DNA from: Apostichopus japonicus
Lineage: Eukaryota; Echinodermata; Holothuroidea; Aspidochirotida; Stichopodidae
NCBI RefSeq assembly: GCF_037975245.1
Contig: NC_092564.1
Span: forward strand, 23,634,484-23,698,483
Direction: 5' to 3'
Length of the DNA: 64,000 bases
Positions 1,820-45,900 of the stretch are shown here, one piece after another. Positions within the stretch are counted from its first letter, which is position 1. Each line of letters begins with the position of its first letter. The notes beneath the pieces were generated by a model, which was not told the origin of the DNA, did not search any database, and worked only from the letters and a program-made list of their open reading frames with translations. Position numbers and translations under genes: made by a program.

Positions 1820-4800
1820 TCAATTCACAAAGAAAATGTCATCTAACATTTTAGACTCTTCTTCTTCATCGGAACTCTCTACAATTTCGGAGCCATAGAG
1901 GCGAGAGGAGAGAGTGGCGGGTGGTATTCTCGACCAATCAGATGAAACTTGGGCTGTCTGTTTTAGCGGTGCAGTGCGACGCCGACGAGGATGTGATTCG
2001 ATGGGTGTGGCTGGGTGTGTGAATGGTCTGTTATTACTTTCGGAACTATCAGATGGTACGCTGTTAAGGTCCTCAATTAGATGTTCAAGAATGTGAAAGT
2101 CTCTGAGCAAAGAGAAATGTTATCATTGAAATTTATGAAGAAAAAAGAAATGTTACCACTAAAATTTACAAAGAAAAAAAAGAAAAAAGAGAAACCTTTC
2201 CATAACAAGTTGGAAGAAAATGAATATCAATGTTCCTAATATGTGCTGAGAAACAGGTCATATGAGGTCACAAAAGACTTCTCTGGATTTCTATGTTGTT
2301 TCTGATTAATTGACTTCTTGGTCTGTGTGCTAGACTACCTAGTCCAGCCACTGTGATTGATGCGGTTGTGGCTTGAAGATTAATTCTCAAAAGCTAAAAA
2401 GTTATATTGAACAAAAGCAAACTCACAAGAGTAGCTATTTTTAATAATTTGTGACATATCAAACTTTATTTTGAAATTTATTTATTGAAATTTATTTTGC
2501 TCATCCCACTCTAACAGACCGTTGCTCCAATAATGATTATTTAAAACAACCATTTGTAGTCCTTGGAAGGAAAGCTAACCGATATCTTCATGAAGAAATG
2601 GGAAATTCGACAGATTATCTTACAGCAGTAGCTGCTTGTGTCTGGATGACAACATATTCTGACACATTCAGTAAAGAAAAGTATTCATCAAATCTGTTCA
2701 AAAGATACCAACAGTTTGTCTAGGCCAACAACACTTTCACCCCGTTGGAAATTTTGTTAATTAACTGTTCTTTCCTGTCACACTTTAAAGCACTCTTGTT
2801 GGAACAGTATGAGCAGTAGCAAGGTCCTGCTCTTATGAAAGCATCATAAGTGATTATTGTCTGTGCAACTGTACACAAGCCTTTATCATACGACAATTGT
2901 CACGATTGGCTTACACTTTCATAACATACATATGTATAGCCTAATTTGCATACAAGAGTTTAGGCAAAACTGTTATCACTATTTGGTACAGCTAACAAAT
3001 GGCTAACCCTGCACCTCTTTAGTGAAAACTAGTACAGACTCCTGACCTGAAAATGGGATTACTGGAGTGAAATCTTCTATGGAGTCAAAATGTTTATGAA
3101 ATTGAGAAATGAAATGTTACTGGTTGTTTATTACCAAGTCGAAACCTTTGGGTTCATCCTCCGATATGTTGTCATTTAACAGTTAAAACTTGATGCCTAA
3201 ATAAGCCATTCTTGGTAATTTCTATGGGCTGACATAAAATCTAGTGAGATATCTGTCAGAAGGTAGGGTCCAACATCTAAGTCACTTACGTCACTCTCGC
3301 TGAATTCCCAACTGGCCTCTTCTCTGGTGACGTAACAAATTCGTCAGATGAGAGCGCATCTACTGAGGATTCTCTGGACAAGCCCGACCCCGGATGGTGG
3401 ATTGCAGGAGATGCCCTGAGGACTCTCCTCTCAGGATGAAGGTGAGATACTATAAGAGCAGAAGTCGCAACATCCACTGTAGCATTTGATGCTCGGTCTG
3501 AATTCAAGATAAATTTGAAGAACAATTATTTTAGGGATGTATTATCAAAAAAAGTAGAGAAAAAAAACACATTAAATAATTCAAGTTTGTAATGACAATC
3601 TAAGAGCAAACACCAAACAAAAAACTGCATTTTATGACATGACCAAAACATAGACAATTGATACAAATTGGCAGAAATTTACAAAATGGCAAAAATGATA
3701 AAACACTCTTTGAGTATGTAGTATTAAACCTAAAAGTAATATTCTGGTAGAAATATCCATGTTATGGAAGTCAAAATAAAAGTCACATTGCTACTGCAAA
3801 CCCCATCTCAACAACTATTTTCTAACTCCAGGATAACCTTGGTGACGTATATTTTGCACTATGAATTCTTCAGTGCTCTAGAAAATGGATCACATTGGGT
3901 AGTCTGTGATGTCATCATGGCCGATGCTTTTCAAAAGCTTTACTTTCCTTTTACAATTTTACTTTGATTGTCCAGTTGATTTTAGATGTCATCATTCTCC
4001 GAATTCAAGGTAACACCCAATTACAATATTTGTTTACGCAATATAATTTTCTCCTATGGATACAAAAAAAAAAAAACACCATTCAGGGCAAAATTCTAAA
4101 GACATTTTCTGGTTGTACCTCTGACAACCGGGTTTTACCAGTTGGTTGTCCGAACAGTCAATTTTGGTTGTGCGGAAAAAATGCAGCAAAGAAGGACGAG
4201 TATGTCTACACTGTAGAAGATGTGTAGGTTTGGTGAATAGAACCACAGCTTTGAGTCAGTAAAACCCCCATTTGGGTTGGTCATAGGCTTACCAATATTT
4301 CTTTGTTATTTCAATATCTCCATATGATGTAGGGTGATATCAATTTTAAAAAAGTTTTAGGGGGGGGGGTATTTAGTTACAATGCAATTTGAATTTGATT
4401 TAAACAATTAGTCTTTTCCCAGACATTCCCCAAAGCTGAATTGGTTAAAAAAACAGGACAAAAATTTGCCCTGTCATTCTTTGACTTTGTAGCATACTTG
4501 GAGATAATAATAACAATTACATCATCAACCAAATTTAACATGTAGTCAACAATTCTTTTGAGAAACTTACCAGGTTTACTAGTCTTGTTTTCTTTGCGGT
4601 GACTGTCACTGTGTAGGGTCACCGAACCTTGAATCTGACCGACGCTGATGTGACTGTCCTCTCCACCTCGCATCCCAAGCACACTAGTCCTATCCCCATC
4701 AAGGCCACCATGATGAGAGAGGTTTCCTCCATTGATTGGACCTCCCATTCTCCCTCGACCCTGTAACCTTTCAAAACCTGGGTCTATGTGGGCTGTTAAA

Positions 4801-39900: not shown

Positions 39901-42900
39901 ACATCTTGTACCGACGGTACTCTGTGTTATTATTCATAATTACGCTATATTTCCACGTTTAGTTTGCATTTTCGAAGAATGTTATATTGTCACCGATAAT
40001 TAGGAATCTTGCCTAATATCTTATGCTCATATTTTAACCCCCTCTTCTTTGTTTTAACTGAACTTCCTTCTGGATTGCAGTATTAACAGACGCATTGTGT
40101 TTTCCCTTTCTCTACAGTCAATGGCTAAATTCCTTAAAGATCCAACTGGGGACATTCCATGGGAGGAAGACCCTGGTGCACAAGATGTACAGCACCTTGA
40201 AACTCCAAAGGTACATGATTTACATTTCATTTGCATAACAATGATGACAATTGTTTCAATCGCAACACTATAAGTTGTGCGATGTAGTGCGTTTTGAGAT
40301 CAAACGACGATAGGAAGTTTCAAAGGTTTCTTGCCAATGATGGACTTGGTTTATTGTGTTTTTGAAGATTTTTTTGAGGGGAAAGGAGGGGGTTGGGTTC
40401 GTTCCTTAAAAAGGCCAGAATTAATTAGTAATACATTACTTAACCTTTTAACTTTTGGATATTTGTCTGAGAAAGTATTTTTTTTTTCTTTTTAAATGCA
40501 GCAAAAGTATGCAATTGGAGTTCTCTAGTTGTCAATTGAATTCAAAGTTTTATTTTCTGATAAGAAATTATTGATATGAACTTTCAGAAGTGCATGTACA
40601 ACACCAACTTTGGGTTACTCATTCTGAACACAGCTGTCATTGAGCAGTTCAGGCAGTGTGTATGGCTTTGCAGTATACATTCCTACTTGGTTTCTGTCTG
40701 TTGTTTAACGCTTAACTCCAGAAGGAAATGGTTTCTAAACTTTATACTAATTCATCGGGATAGTTTCAGTAAGGAAACAGTTACCTGAAATGTTCTCAGG
40801 GATAGGAAAACTATTGTAACAATTGAGTGTAGTACTCTTAAAAAGTTCATTTAAACAGAACCTTTATGTGTCAACAGAATGGAGAGTTTCAATGGCTGTT
40901 AAATTGGCTAATAAAACAAGTATTAAAGATGGACTTTGAAGTTGTTCCTCTTTCATGTTAGAGAGAAAGTTCCCGATTTCTGCTGACCCGTTCTTTGATA
41001 GGTTTATGTGTTAGTTTCTGTTATTTGGTTACTCTTTGTTGTAAAAAAAAAAATTTTCACAGAAAATACTTCATAGTAACATTTCATGATTTTTTTTTCC
41101 AGTCTTTCAATAAACTTATTAGCAGTGAGAAGAAACCCATCTTGATTATGTTTTATGCACCATGTGAGTATCTAGGCTTGACTATCTTAAATTATTTTTA
41201 AATATTACCCTCAGATCACCCCCTCCCCGCCCATTCTTCCACCGTTTCACACCCTTGTACCCACAAAAAGCTGGTTTTGATTGACCTCAGATCTCAGCTT
41301 GCCAAAAAGTTGTCAAAACTTTGTAAAAAGTTGTTTTCTTAGGTGTGTTCAGGACCATTCTGATTATTGACAAACATGGAGGGTGGGTTGAAGTCGAAGA
41401 AAATTACGTGACTAATGGACGGAAAACATTGGTACAAAATGTTAGGAGTTTTAGCATGAGTGACTTTCCTTTGAATATAAAGAGAGGGGATGGATGGTGG
41501 GAGGGGGTGGGGGGGTGGGAATGTTGTTCACTTGTAACCCTCAAAAAGAATTTAATTAGAAACATTGGTGGAATTTTTAAACTATGTGATAAATTGCTTT
41601 GAAGAAACCTTTCATGTTATGGAAAATATGTTTTGAGCGATTATCTGTTTTGGGGAATTAAAGCCCTCTCAAATCAGTTGGAGAACCAGCTTTGATGGAA
41701 TCTGCATGTTTTTTTCTTTGACCCCATTATTAAAGGCATTGATGACTTGCCCCAAACGGGATGCCGCCCTCTGAAAAAAGTTAACCCTTGCAAGTGAAGT
41801 TTTTTTCTTGTCGCAAAATGCAGACAGTAATGAAACGTGATACCTTGTTACCTTTTATCTTGACCTGAGATATCCATCGCTGCTATGTACACTGTGTTGT
41901 GGGTATTGACTGTAGCTGCATGTATGGACTGTACACTAGTGTCTTATTACCGACCGTAGCAAGCGGTGTGTGTATTTTCTGGGATCGATGGTAGTGTCTA
42001 ACACGTCTGTTACACCTCATTAGAAACTTGGTCAGATTACCGGCATTAGACATTTCTTTGTGCAGGAGTCTTCACACCCTTTAAGCAATTTGGCAATTTA
42101 AGCTGTATTTTAGTGGTGAAAAATGTGCCATAGGGATATGTACCTACAGAGGGCGCTATTGCTAAATCAATGTTAATATTAACTCGTCTTGCAGTATTAA
42201 GACGGACGGCATCAAAGGCAATGTCGAGAGTGCTAGCATCAATATTGTTCTTTCTCTCTTCACTTAATTTGTATACCTCTTATCTTATTTTCAGGGTGTG
42301 GTCATTGTAAAAGAATGAAGCCAGAGTTTGCTCAAGCAGCTACAGAACTAAAGTCTGATGCTGTAAGTAACTATTAGTAACTTGAAGTAACTGTAACTTG
42401 AAGAAACTGTATGTAACTTGAAGTCTATTAGTAACTTGAAGTAATTATTAGTAACTTGAAGAAACTGTATGTAACTTGAAGTCTATTAGTAACTTGAAGT
42501 AATTATTAGTAACTTGAAGTAACTAATAGTAACTTGAAGTAACTGTAACTTGAAGAAACTGTAAGTAACTTGAAGTCTATCAGTAACTTGAAGTAATTGT
42601 AACTTGAAGAAACTGTACGTAACTTGAAGTAGTCGAAAGAGTACTTATTTATTGAGCACTTGTCGTATTATTTGTAGTATGTTGTATCGAATTAGTTTTT
42701 TGCAAGTAATGTGTGGGATGCCATTTCCATTACATTGCCACCAATCTTGGCTCGAGACATTGCCATGTCGTTCTGTACATGCCTTAAAAAATTACAGTGT
42801 GCAAACTAAATCAACTAAAATGTGTCATGGACATTGTGGGTAAGTTTAGCAGTGAACTGTTGTAGTAAAGCCAAACTCATAGGCATGTTTTGCTTGCTTT

Positions 42901-45900
42901 CAAAGAAATAATTAGTCTTAAATTATTGAGTGAAACTGCAGTGAGTTAAAATGTAATAATGCTTTTATTTCTTTACCCATATAAAAATATTTTACAGAAA
43001 TCGGAAGAAATGTCTTCCTTGTGATATTCATCCACTTAATGCATTATGAATATGTATTGATTGTACCAGAACAGTTTGAATATGCAACAGTCTTTGATTT
43101 CAGAAAAGGATTTCAACTTTTAGGCCGTTCTGTATTTTGTTTTGTCGAAGGGTAATTTGACGTGATAGTCTATTAATAATGTGTTTTTTTTTGTACACTA
43201 CAATTTGAGGATATGCATATGCATTTGATTTAAATGAATATGCATACTGCAATGATTTTTTTTTATAGGTTTTGGTAGGCATGGATGTTGACAACCCTCA
43301 GTCTCAGCAGCTTAGGTCGGTTTACAACATCACTGGTTTCCCAACAATCCTTTATTTTGAGTGAGTATTTTATGTTTCCTAAGTTTCTTTACTTTTCTCT
43401 TTTCCCACTACTCTTAAACCCATCTTATCTGCGCACATCTTATTCATCAGTGTTCATGCGTCATATGTATCACAAGGATGTTGAAAGGAACGTAGGTTTT
43501 CTCGTTACCAATTAAATGGTGTAAAAACGTTATTTTTTAAAACTTTTGAGTTCATCTCACAATCAGAAAGTTACCATGAAACTTTCATAGAAATACTTCA
43601 CATTTGTCAAGTGTAAGTTTAACCAACCAATTATTATTTTATTCTTCTTTCTTTCTCTCTCTAGAAATGGAAGAAAGAAATATAATTTTGGAGGTGAAAG
43701 GACAAAAGATGGCATTATTGAATGGATGCATGAGTATGTATAATTTAGATATAACACTTGTATTATAAATTTTTGAAAGAAATCAGAAATTAACAAAACA
43801 GGCAGTAAAGAGGTTGTAAACAACTACTCGTGTGTAAGTTTTGTTAATGAAGTTTTTTTGTAGTAGGAATTATGTGAGCACACTCATTGGAGGGTTTGAA
43901 AGCTTAAAAGAAGGGGTGGGAGTTTTGGGGAAGAATGGAGGCTGGGGGTGGTGGGGTGGAGTTTTAAGGGTGGACAAGGTATTCATGTTTTTGGTTCTTT
44001 TAGATATTATGCTTTTAGTTTATTTTGTAATATTGATTCTGAAAATGCCACAGCAACAAAAAAACATTTAGAGGGCAGCAGATAAAAGCCTGGAATGAAG
44101 ATGAGCATCAATCTTGTTAAGACACATAAGGCATCTTTAAGGAAGATGGAATCCTGGAAGGGTATCATATAATAATTGCTTTTTTGCAATCTTGAGGCAA
44201 GATTTGGAAGTTAGTGTATATACATAATGCATAACAGGAAACCAGTTTATCAACAAATTAGTTGTCCTCATTTAGTTAATTGATCTGTGCACATATTTCA
44301 TGAAACTGACTACAATCTATAAAACCGTGAAAAATTGGTGTTGTTTAGCCACTTTTTAAATTTTTTTTAATTCTCATCCTAGTCCGCAACCTCCAAAGGA
44401 AGCAGAAAAGGAAGCAGAGTGGAGTGACGAAGAATCAGAGGTTGTCCATCTCTCAGACGATTCATTTGACCCTTACCTTCTGGAACATAGCTCTGTGTTA
44501 GTTATGTTCTATGCACCATGTAAGTCCATCGTATTGTGTTGTTTCACCCATACCTTCTGGAACATAACTCTGTGTTAGTTATGTTCTATGCACCATGTAA
44601 GTCCATCGTATTGTGTTGTTTCACCCATACCTTCTGGAACATAACTCTGTGTTAGTTATGTTCTATGCACCATGTAAGTCCATGCTATTGTGTTGTTTCA
44701 CCCATACCTTCTGGAACATAACTCTCTGTTAGTTATGTTCTACGCACCATGTAAGTCCATGCTATTGTGTTGTTTCACGCATACCTTGTGGAACATAACT
44801 CTGTGTTAGTTATGTTCTACGCACCATGTAAGTCCATGCTATTGTGTTGTTTCACGCATACCTTGTGGAACATAACTCTGTGTTAGTTATGTTCTACGCA
44901 CCATGTAAGTCCATGCTATTGTGTTGTTTCACGCATACCTTGTGGAACATAACTCTGTGTTAGTTATGTTCTATGCACCATGTAAGTCCATGCTATTGTG
45001 TTGTTTCACCCATACCTTGTGGAACATAACTCTGTGTTAGTTATGTTCTATGCACCATGTAAGTCCATGCTATTGTGTTGTTTCACCCATACCTTGTGGA
45101 ACATAACTCTGTGTTAGTTATGTTCTATGCACCATGTAAGTCCATGCTATTGTGTTGTTTCTCCCATACCTTGTGGAACATAACTCTGTGTTAGTTATGT
45201 TCTACGCACCGTCTAAGTTCATTCTGTTGCTATATTTTACTTGTACCTTCTAGAACATGACTTTGTGTTAGTAATTTTGTATGCACCATGACAATCCTGT
45301 TTTTTGCCCCCAATTTTATTTTATTTTTACTTCTTTAAAGATGGGGAATTTTAGTAACGATTCACAGGGTGTTATCAACAGTGTGCCTCCTGTTCATCTT
45401 TCATTACACAGTGTGTTTATTTGTTTCTACACAGTATGTTTATAATTGTTTAATTTTGTTTACTGCAGGGTGTGGTCACTGTAAAAAGATGAAGCCGGAA
45501 TACGCAGACGCAGCTGAACAACTCAAAGAGGAAGGAGTGAGTATAAAATGTCTTCTGGGGGAATCTTTCATATTTGAAAACAAATGATGCCTTAACAGTA
45601 ACAATCTCATTCATGGTTATATGCTTGTCTATTTGTTTTATGGTTTTTTTTACCTGTGAGTAAACCGTTGCTAGTTTATTGATTGGTAAACTGGTGCACC
45701 ATTCTAATAAGGGAAATACGTTGAAATACAAATTAGAAATGGATTTATGATGATGAGTTATTCCTTTCTATATGTACCCGTACTGTTTCTTCTAATCGAT
45801 CATGTTCTTGTTTTTTGGTCTCAGCTTCCCGGTGTCTTGGCAGCGGTTGATGCTACCAAAGCCCCAGGCGTGGCCGGCAGGTTTGACGTTAAAGGCTACC

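Follow-up and report, generated by a model that had tools for sequence, protein, structure and literature searches.

A 77-bp minisatellite across an exon-intron boundary of a PDIA5-type gene in Apostichopus japonicus, and tandem arrays at donors and acceptors of the same genome

Boundary minisatellites in amphioxus, human and sea cucumber

The closest described counterparts of the array reported here are the mirages of amphioxus, the original description of which is reportedly that of Canestro et al. in 2002. As presented in two papers (PMC3087553, PMC3902484), mirages are minisatellite-like tandem duplications of exon-intron boundaries, found in Adh3, in the globin genes BflGb6 and BflGb9, and in PGBD5; their units are 10-160 bp long, the AG/GT signals are kept in many copies, and both boundaries are affected. 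According to the same papers, RT-PCR suggests regular splicing of these genes, and the arrays display length and somatic instability.

We have analyzed a window of 64,000 nucleotides of the sea cucumber Apostichopus japonicus (NCBI RefSeq assembly GCF_037975245.1, contig NC_092564.1, positions 23,634,484 to 23,698,483), the positions of which are used below; all its features discussed here lie on the forward strand. It contains a 77-bp array that is real, of this known kind, and not unusual in its genome. As in amphioxus, the repeated unit spans a boundary, combining 55 nt of exon end with 22 nt of intron start, and the splice signal is kept in many copies, GTAAGT being retained in eight of the ten intronic copies and lost in two. 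The homogeneous center and divergent edge of the array also recall an amphioxus globin mirage. The differences are that the host is an echinoderm, that arrays here reach up to 34 exon-containing copies, and that donors are affected far more than acceptors in our A. japonicus sample, whereas in amphioxus both boundaries are involved.

A second comparison is offered by the human IFI6 (6-16) minisatellite, in which two downstream units are used as donors, giving three mRNA species (reportedly Turri et al. 1995; PMC4526556). The likeness lies in a splice donor provided by every tandem unit beside a real exon. The later donors of the 77-bp array, however, bring a stop codon: the unit length of 77 is not divisible by 3, and a TAG at 44576-44578 is read from all later donors, which does not agree with alternative isoforms of the IFI6 type. 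Tandem-duplication models of intron gain, reportedly put forward by Rogers in 1989 and by Gao and Lynch in 2009, likewise involve duplicated sequence that carries splice signals, but the 77-bp array enlarges an existing intron, and no new intron position is seen. The DDX3Y MSY2 minisatellite, a promoter repeat, was set aside as a parallel, as were C. elegans CeRep25B, amphioxus huntingtin and PMC8724738, the last of which contributed nothing on competing donors. Among the matches in a limited literature set, taken by title and the start of the abstract, there is no report of boundary repeats in echinoderms or sea cucumbers; as far as that literature goes, what is new is the lineage of the host and the tally of donors versus acceptors.

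Anatomy of the 77-bp array and its host gene

In the parts examined, the host gene is a PDIA5-type protein disulfide isomerase. The exon that enters the array (44384-44519, 136 nt) encodes the first half of a catalytic thioredoxin domain and includes the motif FYAPWCGHC (...FYAPWCGHCKK...); it is delimited by GT-AG signals, reading frame and PF00085, and it contributes its last 55 nt to the repeat unit. Its authentic 5' splice site, GTAAGT at 44520-44525, interrupts a Trp codon in phase 1, and the next exon (45469-45536, also placed by GT-AG and reading frame) begins with the GG of that codon (CTGCAG/GGTGTGGTCAC). The same T/GG split is found in three sister exons (motif starts 41157, 47242 and 49516), in keeping with the initial annotation, which had assigned the first donor the phase used in the sister domains; at the fifth motif place (53386) there is no intron and the frame reads through. 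Splicing from 44520 to 45469 gives a product of 100 residues that matches PF00085 with 79.6 bits (profile positions 2-80 of 103) and has protein disulfide isomerases as its best PDB relatives, and the best PDB match of an N-terminal exon is PDIA5 (4i6x, E 0.0005).

The array extends from 44465 to 45290 and comprises 10.7 head-to-tail copies of the 77-bp unit (TRF: 94% matches, 0% indels, score 1372). It had been described from the sequence as about ten repeats, at a 77-base period, of exon end, donor and intron start with eight extra intact donors, and that description is confirmed. When the copies are aligned in donor register, CACCATGTAAGTCCAT is unchanged in nine places, with starts from 44514 to 45130, namely the exon copy and eight intronic copies. 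The first decoy donor (GTAAGT) lies at 44597-44602 and seven more at 44674, 44751, 44828, 44905, 44982, 45059 and 45136, each within the 9-mer CAT/GTAAGT. The last two copies (45164-45290) are decayed and have lost their donors: copy 9 (45164-45240) has GTCTAAGT at the donor position, and copy 10, from 45241, has GACAAT.

A chance origin of this pattern is excluded. At a lag of 77, the sequence matches itself exactly over stretches of 116, 170 and 151 bases. The true donor falls within the first of these (44491-44606), so a late duplication involved the functional boundary itself. Recent expansion, as initially proposed, fits the central copies, of which 4 and 5 are identical and 1-8 vary at only 7 of 77 columns, but does not extend to the 3' end: of the 77 positions of copy 10, only 48-50 agree with copies 0-9. 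By analogy with amphioxus mirages, the copy number of the array probably varies.

Tandem arrays are prone to miscounting, and the exact copy number of this one may be off. That the array as a whole is an artefact of assembly is, however, very improbable, given the ordered variants along it together with its decayed 3' copies, the length of the contigs (18 to 43 Mb) and the presence of like structures at other loci. A genome search at the DNA level, in which very common words are skipped, placed the 77-bp array itself at one locus.

The same gene carries a second donor-adjacent array (42363-42631), for which the donor GTAAGT at 42363 is followed by 20/58-bp repeats from 42365, as identified with TRF. 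It starts at the donor as GTAAGTAACTATTAG..., and donor-like CTGTAAGTAAC and CTGTATGTAAC occur in its later units.

Arrays at donors and acceptors in surveyed gene families

The genome was surveyed through 147 exon matches of three families, with 45 of 51 matches entered for thioredoxin, 60 of 64 for the CCT chaperonin and 42 of 44 for adaptin. Two donor arrays beyond the 77-bp one, that at 42363 and a 97-bp array in an ERdj5-like gene, had already emerged from the PDIA5-type gene and its family. Six thioredoxin rows were left out (two on C23 that are copies within an array, and four on C19, of which two are second matches at entered loci and two were unfetched), along with four CCT rows (a single one on C8 and three that share a long frame on C3) and two adaptin rows (both on C20, an apparent second copy). 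Loci were fetched and TRF was run; after neighbors had been merged, there were 60 loci, the window included, with 283,559 bases and 74 arrays. Protein-kinase matches (135, with 131 of 1182 candidates scored) stand outside the survey counts and showed no repeated-exon pattern by eye.

A weight matrix of human type served to call the donors, three of which were set by eye. The score cut-off was moved twice, from >3 to >0 and then to >-1, to which it was lowered because the homology-supported donor at C21:16416725 had been missed; the donors found in arrays number 5 of 86 at >3, 7 of 113 at >2, 7 of 130 at >0 and 8 of 138 at >-1. The first automated count of acceptors (score >3) placed 1 of 139 in an array, and the acceptor call at C20:33310652 was removed by eye as false, as the exon begins further on. 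With the array exon at 44384-44519 uncounted, 8 of 138 donors lie in arrays versus 1 of 139 acceptors (Fisher P 0.0175). Without the window, the counts are 8 of 132 and 1 of 132; for CCT and adaptin alone they are 4 of 98 and 0 of 98 (P 0.06), and adaptin alone has no donor in an array among 37.

Donor arrays of the same kind as the 77-bp array thus recur elsewhere in the genome. Four of the eight hold 31 to 75 nt of coding exon, and the other four 2 to 6 nt. Those containing exon are a 78-bp repeat of 33.9 copies (C23:5460682), a 97-bp repeat of 3.0 copies (C23:5465378), a repeat of 46-bp units, reported by TRF as 138 bp and 3.9 copies (C21:16418014), and a 121-bp repeat of 7.1 copies (C21:16416725). 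In all five exon-containing arrays, the 77-bp array included, reading through to the second donor meets an in-frame stop.

Some individual loci merit description. The 97-bp and 78-bp arrays lie in apparently one ERdj5-like gene on C23, in which an exon end with GTAAGA is repeated three times at a period of 97. Right after this boundary array, the intron holds a 94-bp repeat of 18.9 copies with 98% matches (positions 1865-3645 of locus L002), which ends 41 nt upstream of the next acceptor. The 78-bp array (C23:5460644-5463288, locus L007) begins in a coding exon and keeps the donor GAG/GTAAGC in all eight copies checked. At a CCT donor on the minus strand near C17:161725 (L041), there is a 31-bp array of 38.5 copies; the true donor is GTAAGT, while the units seen have GTAGTA, so that the true site here is stronger than its decoys. 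The sole acceptor found in an array is on the minus strand near C19:17505777 (L028), where a 355-bp repeat of 3.5 copies ends 3 nt into the exon.

The positions of array edges were compared with random placement of the arrays in their own loci, with an overlap of up to 80 nt with the exon match allowed. Eight donors in arrays are about twice the expected 4.0 (P 0.041); for CCT and adaptin, the observed four compare with 2.6 (P 0.24). In 13 of 74 arrays the 5' edge falls between -100 and +30 relative to a called donor, versus 5.5 expected (P 0.001), and of these 13, eight contain the donor and five start 8 to 27 nt after it. Array 3' edges at acceptors number 1 versus 6.5 expected (P 0.007). 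In CCT and adaptin the corresponding figures are 7 versus 3.7 at donors (P 0.06), an excess that is suggestive, and 0 versus 3.8 at acceptors (P 0.016), by which the acceptor shortage holds in families unrelated to the PDIA5 array.

The excess of 5' edges near donors could mean that 5' splice sites act as seeds, some process at transcribed donors starting minisatellites more often than elsewhere. The signal comes partly from the thioredoxin family, which entered the survey on account of the PDIA5 array, and of the 13 arrays one is in the PDIA5-type gene and three are in apparently one gene, the ERdj5-like gene on C23. Outside that family the excess is that just given for CCT and adaptin, and adaptin alone has 1 versus 0.75. 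Tolerance of arrays at donors would also raise the count by itself, and we regard seeding as rather unlikely.

We also considered secondary structure. The exon copy of the 77-bp unit contains an inverted repeat (44483-44509) with 10-nt arms that are 90% complementary and 7 nt between them, and in copy 7 the 10-nt arms are perfect (45022-45031 and 45039-45048). For this unit, a stem of 10 bp is unusual, one as long arising in 1 of 60 shuffles in one run and in 0 of 60 in the other, and the inverted repeat is not shared by the other donor arrays that were tested. The hairpin was rejected as a cause common to such arrays: the stems of eight other donor arrays are as expected (0.57 to 0.98 of 60 shuffles have one as long), in a test that left out one donor array with a consensus above 200 bp. 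RNA fold z-scores are modest, at -1.1 to -2.9 for the nine folded among copies 0-9, copy 5 having been left out as identical to copy 4, and +0.2 for copy 10.

Elsewhere in the assembly, the contig C35 (16,099 bp) carries COX1, in which, as read by eye from an alignment, AAA stands opposite Asn of mammalian COX1 in 10 of 11 cases and several AGA stand opposite Ser; TGA occurs within the frame 14 times, and codon use is that of NCBI table 9 (echinoderms, flatworms). Of these two groups, the echinoderms are favored by how closely this COX1 matches that of vertebrates. Five pieces of COX1 lie on the minus strand of a 31-kb contig (C29:14745-31219), perhaps a second or rearranged mitochondrial copy.

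Donor choice and the fate of duplicated boundaries

We think it probable that the 77-bp array is a mirage produced by neutral growth of a minisatellite across an exon-intron boundary, with the exon-nearest donor used and the later ones silent. It would have been born by tandem duplication of a segment that straddled the boundary by chance, and would have grown within the intron by unequal exchange or slippage. Among equal donors at introns long enough for exon definition, the spliceosome would pick the one closest across the exon; the intron here is 949 nt, which makes exon definition plausible. The eight later donors would then be silent and the array close to neutral. Duplication of a donor would go unnoticed, since the copy nearest the exon is at the same time the upstream one, whereas duplication of an acceptor would place an intact copy upstream that would tend to be used, leading to mis-splicing and purging. 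Such an upstream-copy rule predicts arrays over donors and hardly any over acceptors, which matches the survey. Alternatively, acceptors could be short of arrays because their branch point and polypyrimidine tract are constrained. The mirages of amphioxus, present at both boundaries, also speak against this reading.

The 9-mer CATGTAAGT is common to all nine donors, as is their predicted pairing with U1 (-5.8 kcal/mol), so strength cannot explain the choice among them, which must depend on position or context. In the same model, the donors of the three sister exons pair better with U1 (-7.4 to -7.9) than the array donors. The proximity rule comes from human cells and is extended here to A. japonicus. 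In its source (PMC9225289), the upstream of two equal strong donors was used exclusively in five exon-defined human minigenes, but with unmatched donor pairs about 60% of events favored the downstream site, and weakening of both donors of an equal pair caused the larger exons to be skipped instead. For alternative 3' sites, the same text gives the upstream copy in human as favored on the whole, less so under exon definition.

The equality of the nine donors in 9-mer and U1 pairing, and the use of downstream repeat units as donors in IFI6 (PMC4526556), can also be read in favor of decoys with an effect, where some of the transcripts would be spliced at donors 2-9, take in the TAG and be directed to nonsense-mediated decay, copy number tuning the level of the enzyme. 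The frame consequence expected by the initial annotation is borne out, as the exons ending at donors 2 to 9 (213 to 752 nt) all include 44576-44578, which would also be read on intron retention. Use of such donors runs against the exclusive choice of the upstream site among equal strong donors under exon definition (PMC9225289), and would require exons of a length that is rare here: among the 122 exons of the sample for which both ends were called, only 4 are longer than 250 nt. Nor is selection on the decoy donors supported: seven variable columns miss a 16-base stretch of 77 with a probability of 0.18, and donor invariance is no sign of selection because it is expected at this probability without it. 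We consider such decoys improbable, and the effects on splicing fidelity and nonsense-mediated decay suggested earlier are not likely. A point in favor of first-donor use is that the donor-1 product restores the domain, with the PF00085 score given above, while the donor-2 product (64 aa) matches no Pfam family at E 0.001.

Each unit also has a TTAG 18 nt upstream of its donor, through which it might be spliced in as an in-frame microexon; 18 nt preserves the frame, and in the four units examined TGTTAG runs into TTATG... at this distance from the donor. This site scores -0.7 on our own acceptor scale, however, compared with 5.9 for the true acceptor, and the best-of-window acceptor calls of 144 sampled exons all score at least 0.0. 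Moreover, no more than 59 nt would be left for an intron between units, and we give inclusion of such microexons almost no credence.

Returning to neutral growth with use of the exon-nearest donor, we tentatively suggest, somewhat short of an even chance, that boundary minisatellites form a large standing class in this genome, covering several percent of donors and very few acceptors, since splice-site choice would hide donor duplication and make acceptor duplication harmful; a process at donors may in addition seed them. If this is true, the genome holds many natural versions of the classic experiment with duplicated donors, in which as many as 34 near-equal sites follow one another. The little-known structure of amphioxus is extended to an echinoderm, with counts for donors (8 of 138) and acceptors (1 of 139). 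If these counts hold genome-wide, gene prediction would be warned that false exons may be called in such arrays, and the arrays would provide a natural test of how the spliceosome chooses among many identical donors.
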